From contig NZ_SRSG01000058.1 of NCBI RefSeq assembly GCF_005543295.1, positions 62,001 through 126,000 on the forward strand: a DNA stretch of 64,000 nt. The letters run 5' to 3'. Source of the DNA: Halalkalirubrum salinum (GTDB lineage Archaea; Halobacteriota; Halobacteria; Halobacteriales; Haloferacaceae). The position numbers and the translations under genes were made by a program. Shown piece after piece: positions 2,690-12,068 of this stretch. Below the pieces are notes generated by a model that was not told the DNA's origin, ran no database searches, and worked only from the letters and a program-made list of their open reading frames with translations. Every line of letters starts with the position of its first letter. Position 1 is the first letter of the stretch.

Positions 2690-3025
2690 TTATGCGTCGG
2701 ACATCGTCCGCCAGACGTCGTCGAGTTTGTTCTTGACGGCCGATCGCTCCGAAATTTCGACGGTGACGCCACCGACAAAATTTATTTCGACTTCGTCGAC
2801 GTTGCGGCGGTAGACTTTGATACGGCGGTGTTCGTCAGAAAGCGGGCGATCGTGGAGCTCGAGCAGTTCGGTTTCGGTGAGCTCGTTGATCCGCCGGTAG
2901 CAGGTCGCAATTGGGACGTCAAGTTCGTCGCTGATCTCTTGGGCGGATTTTGGATCGCTTGTCGCCGCGAGAATCTCGGTGTTGTATTTGTTCCCAAGTA
3001 TCTCGATGAGCTCCTCCGATACCAT
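2690..3025 (-). CDS. winged helix-turn-helix transcriptional regulator
   Basis: A 111 aa protein with an ArsR-like winged helix over residues 1-75 (KSAQEISDELDVPIATCYRR is the turn and recognition helix), followed by a short beta-rich tail. It converges with the KaiC-like gene and its 5' end faces the archaellin promoter region. Small haloarchaeal regulators of this type often act on neighbouring genes. The palindromes at 3320-3337 and 3422-3433 between it and the first archaellin are candidate binding sites. No effector-binding cysteines are visible, so metal sensing is not suggested. It has no clear orthology to the methanogen archaellum regulator EarA that I can assert. Confidence 0.75.
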   Translation of the reverse strand: MVSEELIEILGNKYNTEILAATSDPKSAQEISDELDVPIATCYRRINELTETELLELHDRPLSDEHRRIKVYRRNVDEVEINFVGGVTVEISERSAVKNKLDDVWRTMSDA

Positions 3026-3319
3026 TCGGTGATAATTGCGCGGGTAAAGTAAAAAAGGGTGTCGGTGGCGATTTTGCTGGTTGCGTTCGGTCCGCTATCA
3101 AATTGGGTACTTGTTTCGGCTGATTGTCACCCGACCAGTTGTTGACAATTGGTCTCGTTGAGATCATAACTGTAGGTCATTTCAACGCTCGTTATGGCTG
3201 CGTCTGACTCGTTGGACTGCCCTGGCTCGGCCAGCTCATTGTGCTGTTGTAGCCGCAACGATCGATCCGAACTCCAGCGGAAATATGGAGATGCTGTCGG
3301 CGCTTACACTCGGGGTGTA

Positions 3320-3337
3320 GATATCAATACTGATATC
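3320..3337. promoter_or_regulatory. perfect inverted repeat, candidate operator
   Basis: GATATCA-ATAC-TGATATC: two 7-bp arms with a 4-bp spacer and no mismatch, about 100 bp upstream of the probable archaellin TATA box. The core CAATACTGATA (3325-3335) recurs inverted as TATCAGTATTG at 3422-3432, which suggests a paired binding site for a dimeric regulator. Confidence 0.5.
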
Positions 3338-3421
3338 TTGTCTTGATATTTGGCTCTTCACCACTCGTTCCAAATTTGCCCAAAACGCTGAATTCTGGTG
3401 TTAGAAGGTCTGAAAAGTTGT

Positions 3422-3443
3422 TATCAGTATTGGTATTTTAAAA
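3422..3443 (+). promoter_or_regulatory. second operator-like site overlapping archaellin TATA box
   Basis: TATCAGTATTGGTA (arms TATCA/TGGTA, one mismatch, 4-bp spacer) runs directly into TTTTAAAA at 3436-3443. A start of transcription about 25 bp further would lie near 3466 and give a leader of about 45 nt before the ATG at 3513. A protein bound here would compete with TBP, so the site fits a repressor. Confidence 0.45.
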
Positions 3444-3512
3444 CGTAGCTTTATGAGTATATCATGATTTCGTTGGGATAACGTCTGCTTACGACCGCAG
3501 GCGAGAGAGACA

Positions 3513-4106
3513 ATGTTTGGAAGCAATACAACGTCGGAGGATCGAGGTCAAGTGGGGATTGGCACGCTCATCGTATTCATTGCGATGGTACTCGTCGCGG
3601 CGATCGCGGCTGGCGTGCTGATCAACACGGCCGGCTTCCTCCAGAGTCAGGCAGAGGCAACGGGTGAAGAAAGTAGCGCACAGGTCAGCGATCGCGTGCA
3701 GGTTATCAGTACGATCGGTACCGCCGACACTAGCGGTGACTATTTGGAGAAAGTAAATCTAACCGTGTCGAAGGCACCGGGTTCGGACGATCTCGCGCTC
3801 AATGACACGATTATCGAACTCACTGGTCCTGATGATTTTGCGACAGTCACGCCGGACGATGATGCGGTCGAGCTACACACCATTGTTGGCTCGGACAACG
3901 ACATCCTCGAGAACACGAGCGATCGTATGGCGATCGAGATTGGTGAAACTAGCCTTCTCGACAATATAGACGGCTCAGATACCGATGTCGCTCCCGCTGA
4001 GGGCGAGCGTCTAACGATCAAGATCACGACCGCCTCAGGCGCGACGACGACCGAAGAGATCCGCGCACCGGAGACGCTTGACGACGGAGAAACCGTCTCG
4101 CTGTAA
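3513..4106 (+). CDS. archaellin (type IV-pilin-like flagellin) 1
   Basis: A 197 aa archaellum filament subunit. The N-terminus is a class III signal peptide: short charged leader ending DRG, then mature [20 protein letters not shown], the long hydrophobic helix that packs in the filament core. Cleavage by a prepilin peptidase (PibD/ArlK, not in this window) would fall after the glycine. The conserved motif [20 protein letters not shown] follows, then a variable surface region, then a conserved end ([15 protein letters not shown]). Several NxT/NxS sequons (for example NLT and NTS) could be N-glycosylated, as known for haloarchaeal archaellins. It is the first of five paralogues in tandem and lies behind the probable main promoter. 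Confidence 0.95.
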
Positions 4107-4153
4107 CGACTGCTGAACACACCCACGAGAATTCAAATTTCACGATCCACATA

Positions 4154-4732
4154 ATGTTCACTGACAATACCACAGACAGAGGTCAGGTGGGGATCGGCAC
4201 GCTCATCGTGTTCATCGCGATGGTACTCGTCGCGGCGATCGCGGCTGGCGTGCTGATCAACACGGCCGGCTTCCTCCAGAGTCAGGCAGAGGCAACCGGC
4301 GAAGAAAGTAGCGCACAGGTCAGCGATCGGATACAGGTCATCAGTGTCGTCGGCACTGCTGACCCGAATGGAGACTTCCTGAACCAGACCGAACTTACGG
4401 TGTCGAAGGCTCCTGGTGCTGACGACATTAACGTGAGCCAGTCGATCATTGAGGTAACCGGTCCCGACAACTTCGAGACGGTGACGAGCGACGACGATGT
4501 CACGTTCGATACGCTGGTCGGCACCGACAACAACATCCTTGAGAACTCGAGCGATCGGATGGTTATCAAACTCGGCGAAGACGACGGACTCGAGAGTCTC
4601 GGATCCAGCGGGGTGACCGCAAATGAAGGCGAACGGTTGAGCATCAAGATCACGACCGCTGCGGGCGCGACGACGACCGAAGAGGTCCGCGTGCCGGAGA
4701 CGCTTGATGACGATGAGACGGTCTCGCTGTAA
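4154..4732 (+). CDS. archaellin 2
   Basis: A 192 aa paralogue of archaellin 1 with the same leader (DRG, then QVGIGTLIV), hydrophobic helix and C-terminal [15 protein letters not shown] block; the middle (residues about 65-160) differs. It starts 47 nt after archaellin 1 and probably shares its transcript. Its first 150 coding bases are almost the same as in archaellin 1, including synonymous positions, which points to recent gene conversion instead of amino-acid selection alone. NQT and NSS sequons are present. Confidence 0.95.
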
Positions 4733-4762
4733 CTGATACACAACAACTACCAATTATATACA

Positions 4763-5344
4763 ATGTTCAGCAAATCAAATTCGGATAGAGGTCAGGTGGG
4801 GATCGGCACGCTGATCGTGTTCATCGCGATGGTTTTGGTCGCCGCAATTGCGGCCGGCGTGCTGATCAACACAGCTGGCTTCTTGCAGAGCCAAGCAGAG
4901 GCAACGGGCGAAGAAAGCAGCGCACAGGTCAGCGATCGCGTGCAGGTTATCAGTGCGATCGGGACCGCTGATTCCAATGGGAATAACCTCTCTGAGGTTA
5001 ACCTGACTGTCTCAAAGGCCCCTGGTGCCGATGATATCAATGTGGATAACGTGATCATTGAACTCACTGGGCCAGACAACTTCGAGACTGTCACCACTGA
5101 CGATACCGAGGTCAGCTTATTCACTATTGTGGGCGCAGATAACGATATCCTTGAGAACACGAGCGACCGGATGGCAATCGAGATCGGTGGTGACAGCGGG
5201 CTTAGTAGTGCTGGCAGTAACGGGGTTAACCCAAGCGAGGGCGATGGGCTAACAATCAAAATTACGACTGCATCAGGCGCAACGACGACTGAAGAGATCC
5301 GCGTCCCAGAGACGCTTGATAGCGATGAGACGGTGTCGCTGTAA
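4763..5344 (+). CDS. archaellin 3
   Basis: A 193 aa paralogue 30 nt after archaellin 2. The start [10 protein letters not shown] and the leader cleavage region match archaellin 4. Its 5' sequence is a mosaic: the first bases equal archaellins 4 and 5, a middle stretch (about 4829-4876) carries distinct synonymous codons, and the following stretch matches 4 and 5 again. The variable domain resembles archaellin 1 ([21 protein letters not shown]). Family role: subunit of the rotating archaellum. Confidence 0.95.
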
Positions 5345-5380
5345 CTGACGCACAACTACTCACTATACAATACTCATACC

Positions 5381-5950
5381 ATGTTCAACAAATCAAATTC
5401 GGATAGAGGTCAGGTGGGGATCGGCACGCTGATCGTGTTCATCGCGATGGTGCTCGTCGCGGCGATCGCGGCTGGCGTGTTGATCAACACGGCCGGCTTC
5501 TTGCAGAGCCAAGCAGAGGCAACGGGCGAAGAAAGCAGCGCACAGGTCAGCGATCGCATTCAAGTGATTAGCACTGTCGGGACCGCAAGCAACGACGGCA
5601 GCAATCTGAGCGTTGTTAACCTCACGGTGTCGAAAGCACCTGGTGCGAACGACATCGCCCTGGAGGATGCGATCGTCGAGGTGACGTCGCCGGATACGTT
5701 CCAGACGCTAACGTACGACGATGACGAGTTCACGCTCGATGCGCTGGTCGATCCGGCCGGCAACAACGTACTGGAGAACTCCAGTGACCGCTACGACCTC
5801 GGGATCGACCTCGAAGCACAGGGGACTGACCTGACGCCCGACGAGGGAGAGTCGCTGACGATCAAGATCACGACCGCATCGGGTGCGACGGCGACCGAAG
5901 AGATCCGCGTGCCGGAGACGCTGGATAACGACGAAAACGTCGCACTCTAA
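5381..5950 (+). CDS. archaellin 4
   Basis: A 189 aa paralogue, 36 nt after archaellin 3. It has the canonical class III leader and hydrophobic N-helix; the variable domain (residues 65-155) is clearly different from the others, with fewer conserved segments. Bases 5402-5547 are identical to 6171-6316 of archaellin 5 over 146 nt. The end ([26 protein letters not shown]) keeps the shared C-terminal block. Confidence 0.95.
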
Positions 5951-6152
5951 CAACTCGTCGCATGATCGCCCACACCACACTGCTCGACGATCGCAGTTAC
6001 TGTCGAGCGTCTGGTGTCGCTGAACACGTCCTGACGTACTGTACGGAAACACACGGTCCTCGGATTTTGTTGGAGGTTTGTCGACCTGGGTCGTTTTGTG
6101 CCCTGCATCGATCGGCCCGTGGTTTCGGAACCGACTGCACAACAACTCAACT
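5951..6152. other. 202-nt spacer before archaellin 5
   Basis: No gene is supported here. It could hold a separate promoter for archaellin 5; no convincing TATA box at the usual distance stands out. Confidence 0.35.
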
Positions 6153-6719
6153 ATGACACAACAACAGACAGATAGAGGTCAGGTGGGGATCGGCACGCTG
6201 ATCGTGTTCATCGCGATGGTGCTCGTCGCGGCGATCGCGGCTGGCGTGTTGATCAACACGGCCGGCTTCTTGCAGAGCCAAGCAGAGGCAACGGGCGAAG
6301 AAAGCAGCGCACAGGTAACGGACCGCGTGCAGGTGATAACGACCCTCGGATCAGACTCGAACGACGATGGGGAACTTGATCATCTCAATCTCACTGTTAG
6401 CCGAGCCGCTGGCGCAAACGAGATCAATCTCGAACAAGCAATTGTTGAGATCACCGGTCCCGACGGATTCGATACGGTGGCTCACGATAGTGGCTTCACC
6501 ACGACCGCCGTGACCGACAGCAGCGATACGCGGCTGGACAACCGCAGTGATCGGATTCGACTCGACTTAGATCTCGACGCCGGCGAGATCGGCAATGTCG
6601 ATCCGGTCTCTGAGAGCGAGGAGTTGACAATCAAAATCACAACTGCCTCCGGTGCAACGACGACAGAGGTTGCCAGAGCGCCTGAGACGATCGACGACGG
6701 CGAAACAGTCGAGCTGTAA
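6153..6719 (+). CDS. archaellin 5
   Basis: A 188 aa archaellin. I start at ATG 6153 ([14 protein letters not shown]), not at the in-frame start at 6078, because class III leaders are short and the extra 25 residues are not conserved. It is set apart from the other four by 202 nt, enough for its own promoter, so it may be expressed separately. The hydrophobic helix and C-terminal block are conserved; the central domain is the most divergent of the five ([20 protein letters not shown]). Confidence 0.93.
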
Positions 6720-6728
6720 CCGTCGCTA

Positions 6729-6754
6729 CTTCGATCACTTCGATCGCTTCGATC
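6729..6754. repeat. three tandem 9-bp repeats
   Basis: CTTCGATC recurs with a period of 9 bp at 6729, 6738 and 6747, just behind the archaellin 5 stop and before the promoter of the next gene. Confidence 0.6.
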
Positions 6755-6797
6755 AACCACCATTTTATTGCCAAACGACACAACATACGATAGAGCC

Positions 6798-11156: not shown

Positions 11157-11603
11157 ATGGGATTTAGCGTCAGTGCCTCGACCGGAATCATCATCGTGGG
11201 GTTATTCCTCGCGTTCGGGATGTTTTACCCGACGATGACCAACGGGCTTGAGGCGGTTTCGGGCGCTGAATCCGATCGAACCGAGCGATTTCTCGACCAG
11301 CAAAACACCGAAATCGAGCTCCAAAATGCGACGAAACAGGACGATGGTGACGAATGGACAGTCAGCGTCACCGTCGAAAACACTGGTGCCACGGCGCTAT
11401 CTGTCGAGACCGTAGACCTGCTTATCGATAACCAATACATGAATACAACAACGACGGCCGTAGATGGCAACGAGAGCACGGACCTGTGGCTGCCGAGTGA
11501 ATCGCTGGAAATCGAAGCGACCGTTGACACCGAACCAGCGCGAGTGACAATCGTCACCGATCATGGAATTCGTGTCTCCAGTACGATCGACGGAGGTGCC
11601 TGA
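11157..11603 (+). CDS. arlF: archaellum stator protein ArlF
   Basis: 148 aa: one N-terminal membrane helix (about 8-26, STGIIIVGLFLAFGMFYP) without a class III cleavage site, then a beta-rich outer domain with the ENTGA-type segment. ArlF binds S-layer protein and, with ArlG, anchors the motor in the pseudoperiplasm. It begins 18 nt after arlCE and ends 3 nt before arlG. Confidence 0.92.
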   Translation: MGFSVSASTGIIIVGLFLAFGMFYPTMTNGLEAVSGAESDRTERFLDQQNTEIELQNATKQDDGDEWTVSVTVENTGATALSVETVDLLIDNQYMNTTTTAVDGNESTDLWLPSESLEIEATVDTEPARVTIVTDHGIRVSSTIDGGA

Positions 11604-11606
11604 CCG

Positions 11607-12068
11607 ATGGCGAGCGTCTCGACGTCTCATCTCATCATCTTTGTTGCGAGTCTTGTCGTTGCCGCTGGTGTCGTCGGGACGTTGACTACCGGCGTCGATC
11701 GGGTGTCGAATGCAGTTCAAGACGGGAGTCTCGACGTGAGCCAACAGGTTCGCACGGACGTAACTGTCATTAGCGATCCAAAAAGCGACGTTCACAACGA
11801 ATCTGCAGCAACTGTCACTATTTACGTTCGCAACACCGGGTCACAGACCATCCCGGTACAGGAGTCTGCTGTCGATGTCCTATTAAACGGCGAGTACAAG
11901 ACCGGAAGCGATCTGAATATGGAACTCGTCTCAGACAGTGACAATCCTGACGTGTGGCGGCCTGAAGAGGTGGTCGCGATCACCGTCTCCGATACGGGAA
12001 TCGAAACGGACAATCGGCTGTTTCTCACCGTCAACGGTGATGAGGAGGTATTTGAGTTCAGATCATGA
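11607..12068 (+). CDS. arlG: archaellum stator protein ArlG
   Basis: 153 aa, similar in build to ArlF: membrane helix (about 7-29, [17 protein letters not shown]) and a beta-sandwich domain with [10 protein letters not shown]. ArlG forms filaments capped by ArlF around the motor. The last 4 bases overlap the arlH start (ATGA), showing translational coupling. Confidence 0.92.

Follow-up and report, generated by a model that had tools for sequence, protein, structure and literature searches.

Archaellin genes of a haloarchaeal tandem array share a core-helix block and carry an outer-domain set of different history

The DNA analysed here (the window) is a 64,000-nt stretch of the 3.4-Mb genome of the haloarchaeon Halalkalirubrum salinum, which is assembled in 62 contigs (window: contig NZ_SRSG01000058.1, positions 62,001 to 126,000). 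Five archaellin genes lie head to tail in tandem at window positions 3513-6719, all on the plus strand, with four closely spaced and one past a gap: gene 1 (A1; 3513-4106), gene 2 (A2; 4154-4732), gene 3 (A3; 4763-5344), gene 4 (A4; 5381-5950) and gene 5 (A5; 6153-6719). For gene 5 the ATG at 6153 was taken as the start, in place of the TTG at 6078 given in the list of open reading frames. Each of the five matched PF01917 in Pfam (117.5, 118.1, 120.4, 117.9 and 124.5 bits for genes 1 to 5, against a gathering score of 29.5; E values from 7e-36 to 1e-33). A search of the genome gave seven PF01917 matches in total. Besides the five archaellins there are two at 11157-12068 of the window, and we read these from their position as putative ArlF and ArlG. 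The array is followed by a DUF7500 gene (Pfam PF24332; 6789-7472, plus strand), a CheY-like gene, a putative cheC, cheD and arlCE; the ArlC/DE and CheD domains were found by Pfam, and arlF-J were named from position. It is this neighbourhood that points to the predicted role of the five archaellins as subunits of a swimming filament.

Two genomes were used for comparison, those of a congener, halophilic archaeon SHRA6 (locus L015), and of a second relative, Natronocalculus amylovorans (locus L016). The DUF7500 protein, of unknown function, is kept between the archaellins and the CheY-like gene in both (87% amino acid identity in SHRA6 and 63% in Natronocalculus). Upstream of the array, a divergent gene on the minus strand (2690-3025) encodes a small helix-turn-helix protein that is 97% identical in SHRA6 and is a candidate regulator. 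The gap before gene 5 spans 202 nt (5951-6152), and gene coordinates place the last array gene past a gap in SHRA6 (162 nt) and Natronocalculus (311 nt) as well. A gap kept in three genomes suggests a separate promoter for gene 5. Its sequence showed no conservation between the window and either SHRA6 or Natronocalculus, and the idea of a second anchor at this point fails.

Within each gene, a block of about 147 nt (alignment codons 10-58) encodes the end of the leader and the whole N-terminal core helix. The blocks lie on the plus strand at 3540-3686, 4175-4321, 4784-4930, 5402-5547 and 6171-6316 in genes 1 to 5, respectively. The first-pass annotation had reported that 5402-5547 and 6171-6316 are identical at every position, silent sites included. 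Indeed, the match is exact and maximal at 146 nt, with no extension at either end, and genes 1 and 2 share 80 identical nt in the block. Where genes 4 and 5 encode the same amino acid, their codons differed at 1 of 48 positions in the block, compared with 30 of 45 in the middle of the gene and 14 of 24 at the C-terminus; the single block difference is the last codon, which lies only partly within the 146 nt. Across the ten gene pairs, silent difference was 0.02-0.40 in the block (0.17-0.40 for gene 1 against the other four), 0.52-0.71 in the middle and 0.27-0.60 in the C-terminal part. Random codon choice would give 0.58-0.61 for the window genes, a level that the middle reaches. The central domains differed strongly, and the result named beforehand as telling against conversion, equal silent divergence in the shared part and the middle, was not what we found. 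Low silent divergence at the C-terminus of some pairs (8 of 30 codons for genes 1 and 2, 8 of 28 for genes 1 and 4) makes exchange there possible too.

The blocks were compared among 96 archaellins from 40 loci, namely 37 fetched stretches plus the window, L015 and L016. Three of the 40 stretches fetched were dropped, one because it was the same locus as L016 (L021) and two because they held no gene with the core motif (L022 and L037); the sample is confined to archaellins inside the fetched stretches. Pairs with 20 or fewer shared codons were skipped in the nearest-block comparison, as were those with fewer than 30 in the between-genus statistics. For all 14 genes of the window, SHRA6 and Natronocalculus, the nearest block by silent sites was a copy in the same genome, and a FastTree phylogeny of the 96 blocks gave a clade per genome (support 0.93 for the window, 0.89 for SHRA6 and 0.65 for Natronocalculus). 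Outer domains of SHRA6 and Natronocalculus pair across species: L015_3 with L016_1 (76% amino acid identity, support 0.85) and L015_1 with L016_2 (70%, support 0.96). Forcing the outer-domain grouping on the blocks, with L015_2, 4 and 5 constrained to group with L016_3 and 4 and the window's five, was rejected (AU test; P = 2.7e-5). An unconstrained IQ-TREE analysis of the 14 blocks kept the window's five apart and did not resolve SHRA6 and Natronocalculus into two clean clades, since L016_4 and L015_5 fell outside. Homogenisation thus appears less complete in these two genomes, which slightly lowers the odds of our reading; paralogs are more alike than orthologs in the window, and more weakly so in SHRA6 and Natronocalculus in this tree.

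Block sharing is common in the family and recurs in several species. All genes were nearest to a paralog of their own at 16 of the 33 loci with two or more archaellins, none were at 10 and the remaining 7 were mixed, a count in which loci lacking a sampled congener pass more easily. As a negative control, the four blocks of an array in two species of another genus (L054 and L055) had a mean silent divergence of 0.52 within a genome and paired with their orthologs between species, so this array seems to escape conversion. The window's blocks were closer by silent distance to L024, from another genus (0.30), than to SHRA6 (0.38), a comparison made over a short block. The blocks of the window may thus be resident, or may have arrived together with the outer domains. 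In a survey of exact runs, made in the ungapped register of the core, 24 of the 92 within-genome pairs had a longest run of 60 nt or more, which in every case ended by mature codon 56. Two of these runs (197 and 196 nt) exceeded that of the window, which is not an extreme case.

A recombination test on the five genes had been proposed in the first-pass annotation, and we applied a run test to the 29 variable sites of codons 10-61, 24 of which are third positions. Uncorrected P values over the ten pairs were 0.0008 for genes 4 and 5, 0.0034 for genes 1 and 2, 0.0106 for genes 1 and 3, 0.0116 for genes 3 and 4 and 0.017 for genes 1 and 5, and were not below 0.05 for the other five. Two pairs, 4-5 and 1-2, remained significant after tenfold correction and the other eight did not. 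This also bears on gene 3, which had been described as a mosaic. It does share two blocks of 63 nt with gene 4 (alignment codons 5-26 and 41-61), separated by a differing stretch, but the run test for this pair fails correction and the mosaic remains suggestive.

At the protein level, 94 of the 96 archaellins have the same core stretch once I/V and F/L/M are treated as interchangeable at two places, and 52 have strictly the same one. As this near-invariance extends to loci with no sign of conversion, purifying selection already keeps the core uniform, and the earlier proposal that conversion is the cause of its uniformity is not supported. The block corresponds to residues 8-56 of A3 and A4. 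A structural model of A3 (mean pLDDT 82.8, pTM 0.63) has helices at residues 14-47 and 50-55 and strands from residue 60, and so shows the archaellin layout of a short leader, an N-terminal helix and a beta-rich outer domain. The sequence matches the Halobacterium salinarum archaellin 9EQ7 (E = 2.7e-34), and in the solved H. salinarum archaellin the helix is 45 residues long and the linker 3 residues (PMC11239922). The position of the block agrees with the predicted helices and with the 45-residue helix of 9EQ7.

Next to this conserved core, the array departs from that of its congener. The promoter region and leader of gene 1 (3382-3539, plus strand) have their orthologs at position 1 of the SHRA6 and Natronocalculus arrays. 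Local alignment with the block left out scored 165 for the window with SHRA6, 65 with Natronocalculus and 60 between the latter two, and none of 500 shuffles scored as high. In blastn, DNA homology to SHRA6 covers 3382-3697 and resumes at 6792, near the start of the DUF7500 gene. The stretch between (3698-6791, plus strand) has no SHRA6 homology, apart from the blocks, the leader codons close to them and a pair of short matches towards the end of gene 4, and the spacer at 3076-3381 is likewise unaligned. Flank alignments to SHRA6 show 79-87% DNA identity, and the 14 flanking genes compared have silent divergences of 0.25-0.44 and proteins 77-99% identical. A replacement-type genomic island is defined by conserved flanks that enclose unrelated content in closely related genomes, and the locus has this form. 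Archaellin blocks all resemble one another, so diagnostic value lies only in what precedes the block. The same gene 1 promoter and leader precede three different outer domains in the three genomes, which places the junction within or next to the block.

The window's five outer domains form one clade (FastTree support 0.97) and are about 45-72% identical to one another. Relative bit scores to the congener were 0.28-0.35 for the window genes and 0.19-0.33 for the SHRA6 genes, and fell below those to other genera for 10 of 10 genes. A congener score lower than that to other genera also occurs elsewhere, and the signal is the low absolute similarity: congeners in 12 other genera had relative bit scores of 0.34-0.88, the lowest, in genus g11, coming near. 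Two further loci, L038 and L044, also have congeners with weakly similar outer domains (relative bit scores 0.34-0.37), where another exchange is possible. A clade of window and SHRA6 outer domains was rejected (AU test; P = 2.9e-56; 32 sequences, including 18 chosen by hand). Between the window and SHRA6, outer domains share 32-40% amino acid identity among the best matches listed. The paired outer domains of SHRA6 and Natronocalculus (65-76%) change at a pace similar to that of ArlG (68%) and DUF7500 (63%), so that fast evolution alone hardly explains such low values. The earlier view that the outer domain is merely free to vary falls short, as the whole set differs from that of the congener, without one-to-one orthology. 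Virus evasion, which the first-pass annotation raised as a possible benefit of such variation, is no more than a hypothesis here. Within the window, silent divergence over the whole outer domain was 0.44-0.63 in the four pairs computed. As that in the middle lies at or above the range of the flanking genes, the outer-domain set probably predates the separation from SHRA6. The outer domains are old, with a history unlike that of the block.

Taken together, we consider it quite probable that the array recombines via the block, with conversion among copies and with exchange of the outer-domain set, probably by import. Import itself is likely. The main alternative is ancient paralogy with differential loss, in which an ancestor held both kinds of outer domain, one set survived in the window's lineage and the other in SHRA6 and Natronocalculus, and the blocks were converted as proposed here, with no import. 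The age of the window's outer domains suits this account, a clade uniting the outer domains of the window, SHRA6 and Natronocalculus was not rejected (AU test; P = 0.278), and the composition of the outer domains is not foreign-looking, although with a GC3 of 0.67 it is uninformative on origin. However, paralogy requires that the ancestor carried about nine or ten archaellins and that two lineages each lost some of them, and the window type was found in none of 170 genomes of the family. On balance we regard it as rather unlikely. The searches also yielded no donor for import: none in those 170 genomes, none in 391 genomes of the class that overlap them (E <= 1e-16, at most 10 candidates scored per genome), none among viral contigs, and one record only among plasmids, at 35% identity. 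That record, the sole plasmid match to the outer domain of gene 3, is an archaellin on a Halomicrococcus plasmid (NZ_CP100467.1, 156895-157272).

The different outer domains behind one position-1 promoter and leader in three genomes could also suggest programmed variation, whereby the array switches outer domains behind its first promoter to alter the filament surface. We find this very unlikely, because the differences lie between species and genera and not within one, and a search of the genome for extra archaellins or silent outer-domain cassettes found none, the outer-domain search returning just the array's five. Elsewhere in the sample, the four archaellins of L041 resemble a duplicated pair, genes 1 and 3 and genes 2 and 4 being nearly alike in the outer domain.

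Block identity might instead have arisen with no conversion, from codon choice or another constraint on highly expressed genes, and silent divergence in the 47-codon block is indeed lowish between genera too, with a mean of 0.47 against the 0.58-0.61 of random choice. Yet none of those 4314 between-genus pairs was at or below 0.10, a level reached by 8 of 92 within-genome pairs and 3 of 154 between-species pairs of one genus, and other arrays hold a silent divergence of 0.5 despite sharing the protein core. When position-specific codon frequencies were taken from the 86 archaellins that lie outside the genus, about 21 differences were expected in the 46 silent codons, and full identity had P of about 10^-14. 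Codon constraint as the sole cause was therefore rejected by the position-specific null, the between-genus pairs and the diverged arrays elsewhere, and we hold this explanation to be highly improbable. Hence, the copies are far more alike at silent sites in the block than elsewhere, beyond what codon use accounts for. An assembly artefact, with the 146-nt repeat collapsed or wrongly joined from short reads, is conceivable for a genome in 62 contigs with a repeat that could exceed the assembler's word length, but scarcely credible given that the SHRA6 and Natronocalculus assemblies carry arrays at the same place, that longer identical blocks (196 and 197 nt) occur in other genomes and that the partial sharing of genes 1-2 and 3-4 needs no single error.

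Silent sites, trees with AU tests, the codon null and the run test thus give good support to the first-pass idea of gene conversion, confined mainly to the part encoding the leader end and core helix. Conversion and crossover are both inferred from sequence here, and with one genome per species conversion is inseparable from repeated unequal crossover. In the recombination reading that we prefer, the core block looks like a hinge: the shared stretch of about 147 nt would provide homology for recombination between copies, and short conversion tracts would pass variants among them, most recently, it appears, between genes 4 and 5. This last event postdates the split from SHRA6, as the two genes show no differences in the 47-codon block while flanking genes have reached silent divergences of 0.25-0.44. 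Outer domains may also have been exchanged by crossovers at two places, the block and the downstream flank; in the window lineage this would have involved the whole set, which was probably gained by uptake of a foreign or long-separated array. The cause may be passive: selection on the helix would keep its DNA recombinable, and the outer domains would have diverged below that limit. More tentatively, and less likely than not, the archaellin core helix may be a general hinge, its conserved DNA allowing haloarchaea to swap the whole filament surface in a single step where helix and outer domain meet, with promoter, secretion signal and assembly core intact.

The array is a clear natural example of genes with two histories that split at a structural boundary, the core kept alike by copy exchange and the surface exchanged or replaced. 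This suggests a testable rule for the way in which archaeal filaments could alter their surface and still assemble, and it warns that whole-gene archaellin trees mix two signals. That filament genes undergo conversion and that archaellin operons are transferred was already known; we found no earlier account of conversion limited to the core block of archaellins from haloarchaea in the literature searched, which covered few subscription journals. What is new is the outer-domain set of the window: it stands behind a shared promoter and leader, forms its own clade and is no more similar to SHRA6 than it is to other genera.

In Haloferax volcanii, copies of the genome undergo efficient gene conversion with one another (PMC11276520). 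Concerted evolution of prokaryotic paralogs is described for bacterial fla in Alteromonadales, tuf and mtrA (PMC6053082). As in those cases, which include a filament subunit gene, copies within the window's genome are closer to each other than to orthologs of other species; unlike them, only the core-helix part is concerted, and archaellin is absent from the seven archaeal genes of Table 2 in that study. Recombination within archaellin genes is also described for flaB1 and flaB2 of Halorubrum lacusprofundi, where the signal peptide of one gene was put before the body of another (PMC7349177). That was one deletion in a two-gene operon, whereas the window's array holds five genes, shows conversion and carries another set of outer domains; the same paper proposes transfer of the archaellin operon between orders. 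Halobacterium salinarum likewise has five archaellins, whose distinguishing regions face the solution, but with almost 80% identity together (PMC11239922) and in two operons (PMC7349177), in contrast to the lower outer-domain identities and single array of the window. Finally, archaellin content differs between close relatives on a conserved replicon in Antarctic haloarchaea, for which virus pressure was suggested (PMC6011602). There, one gene is present or absent, whereas here all five outer domains differ, and they do so between species.
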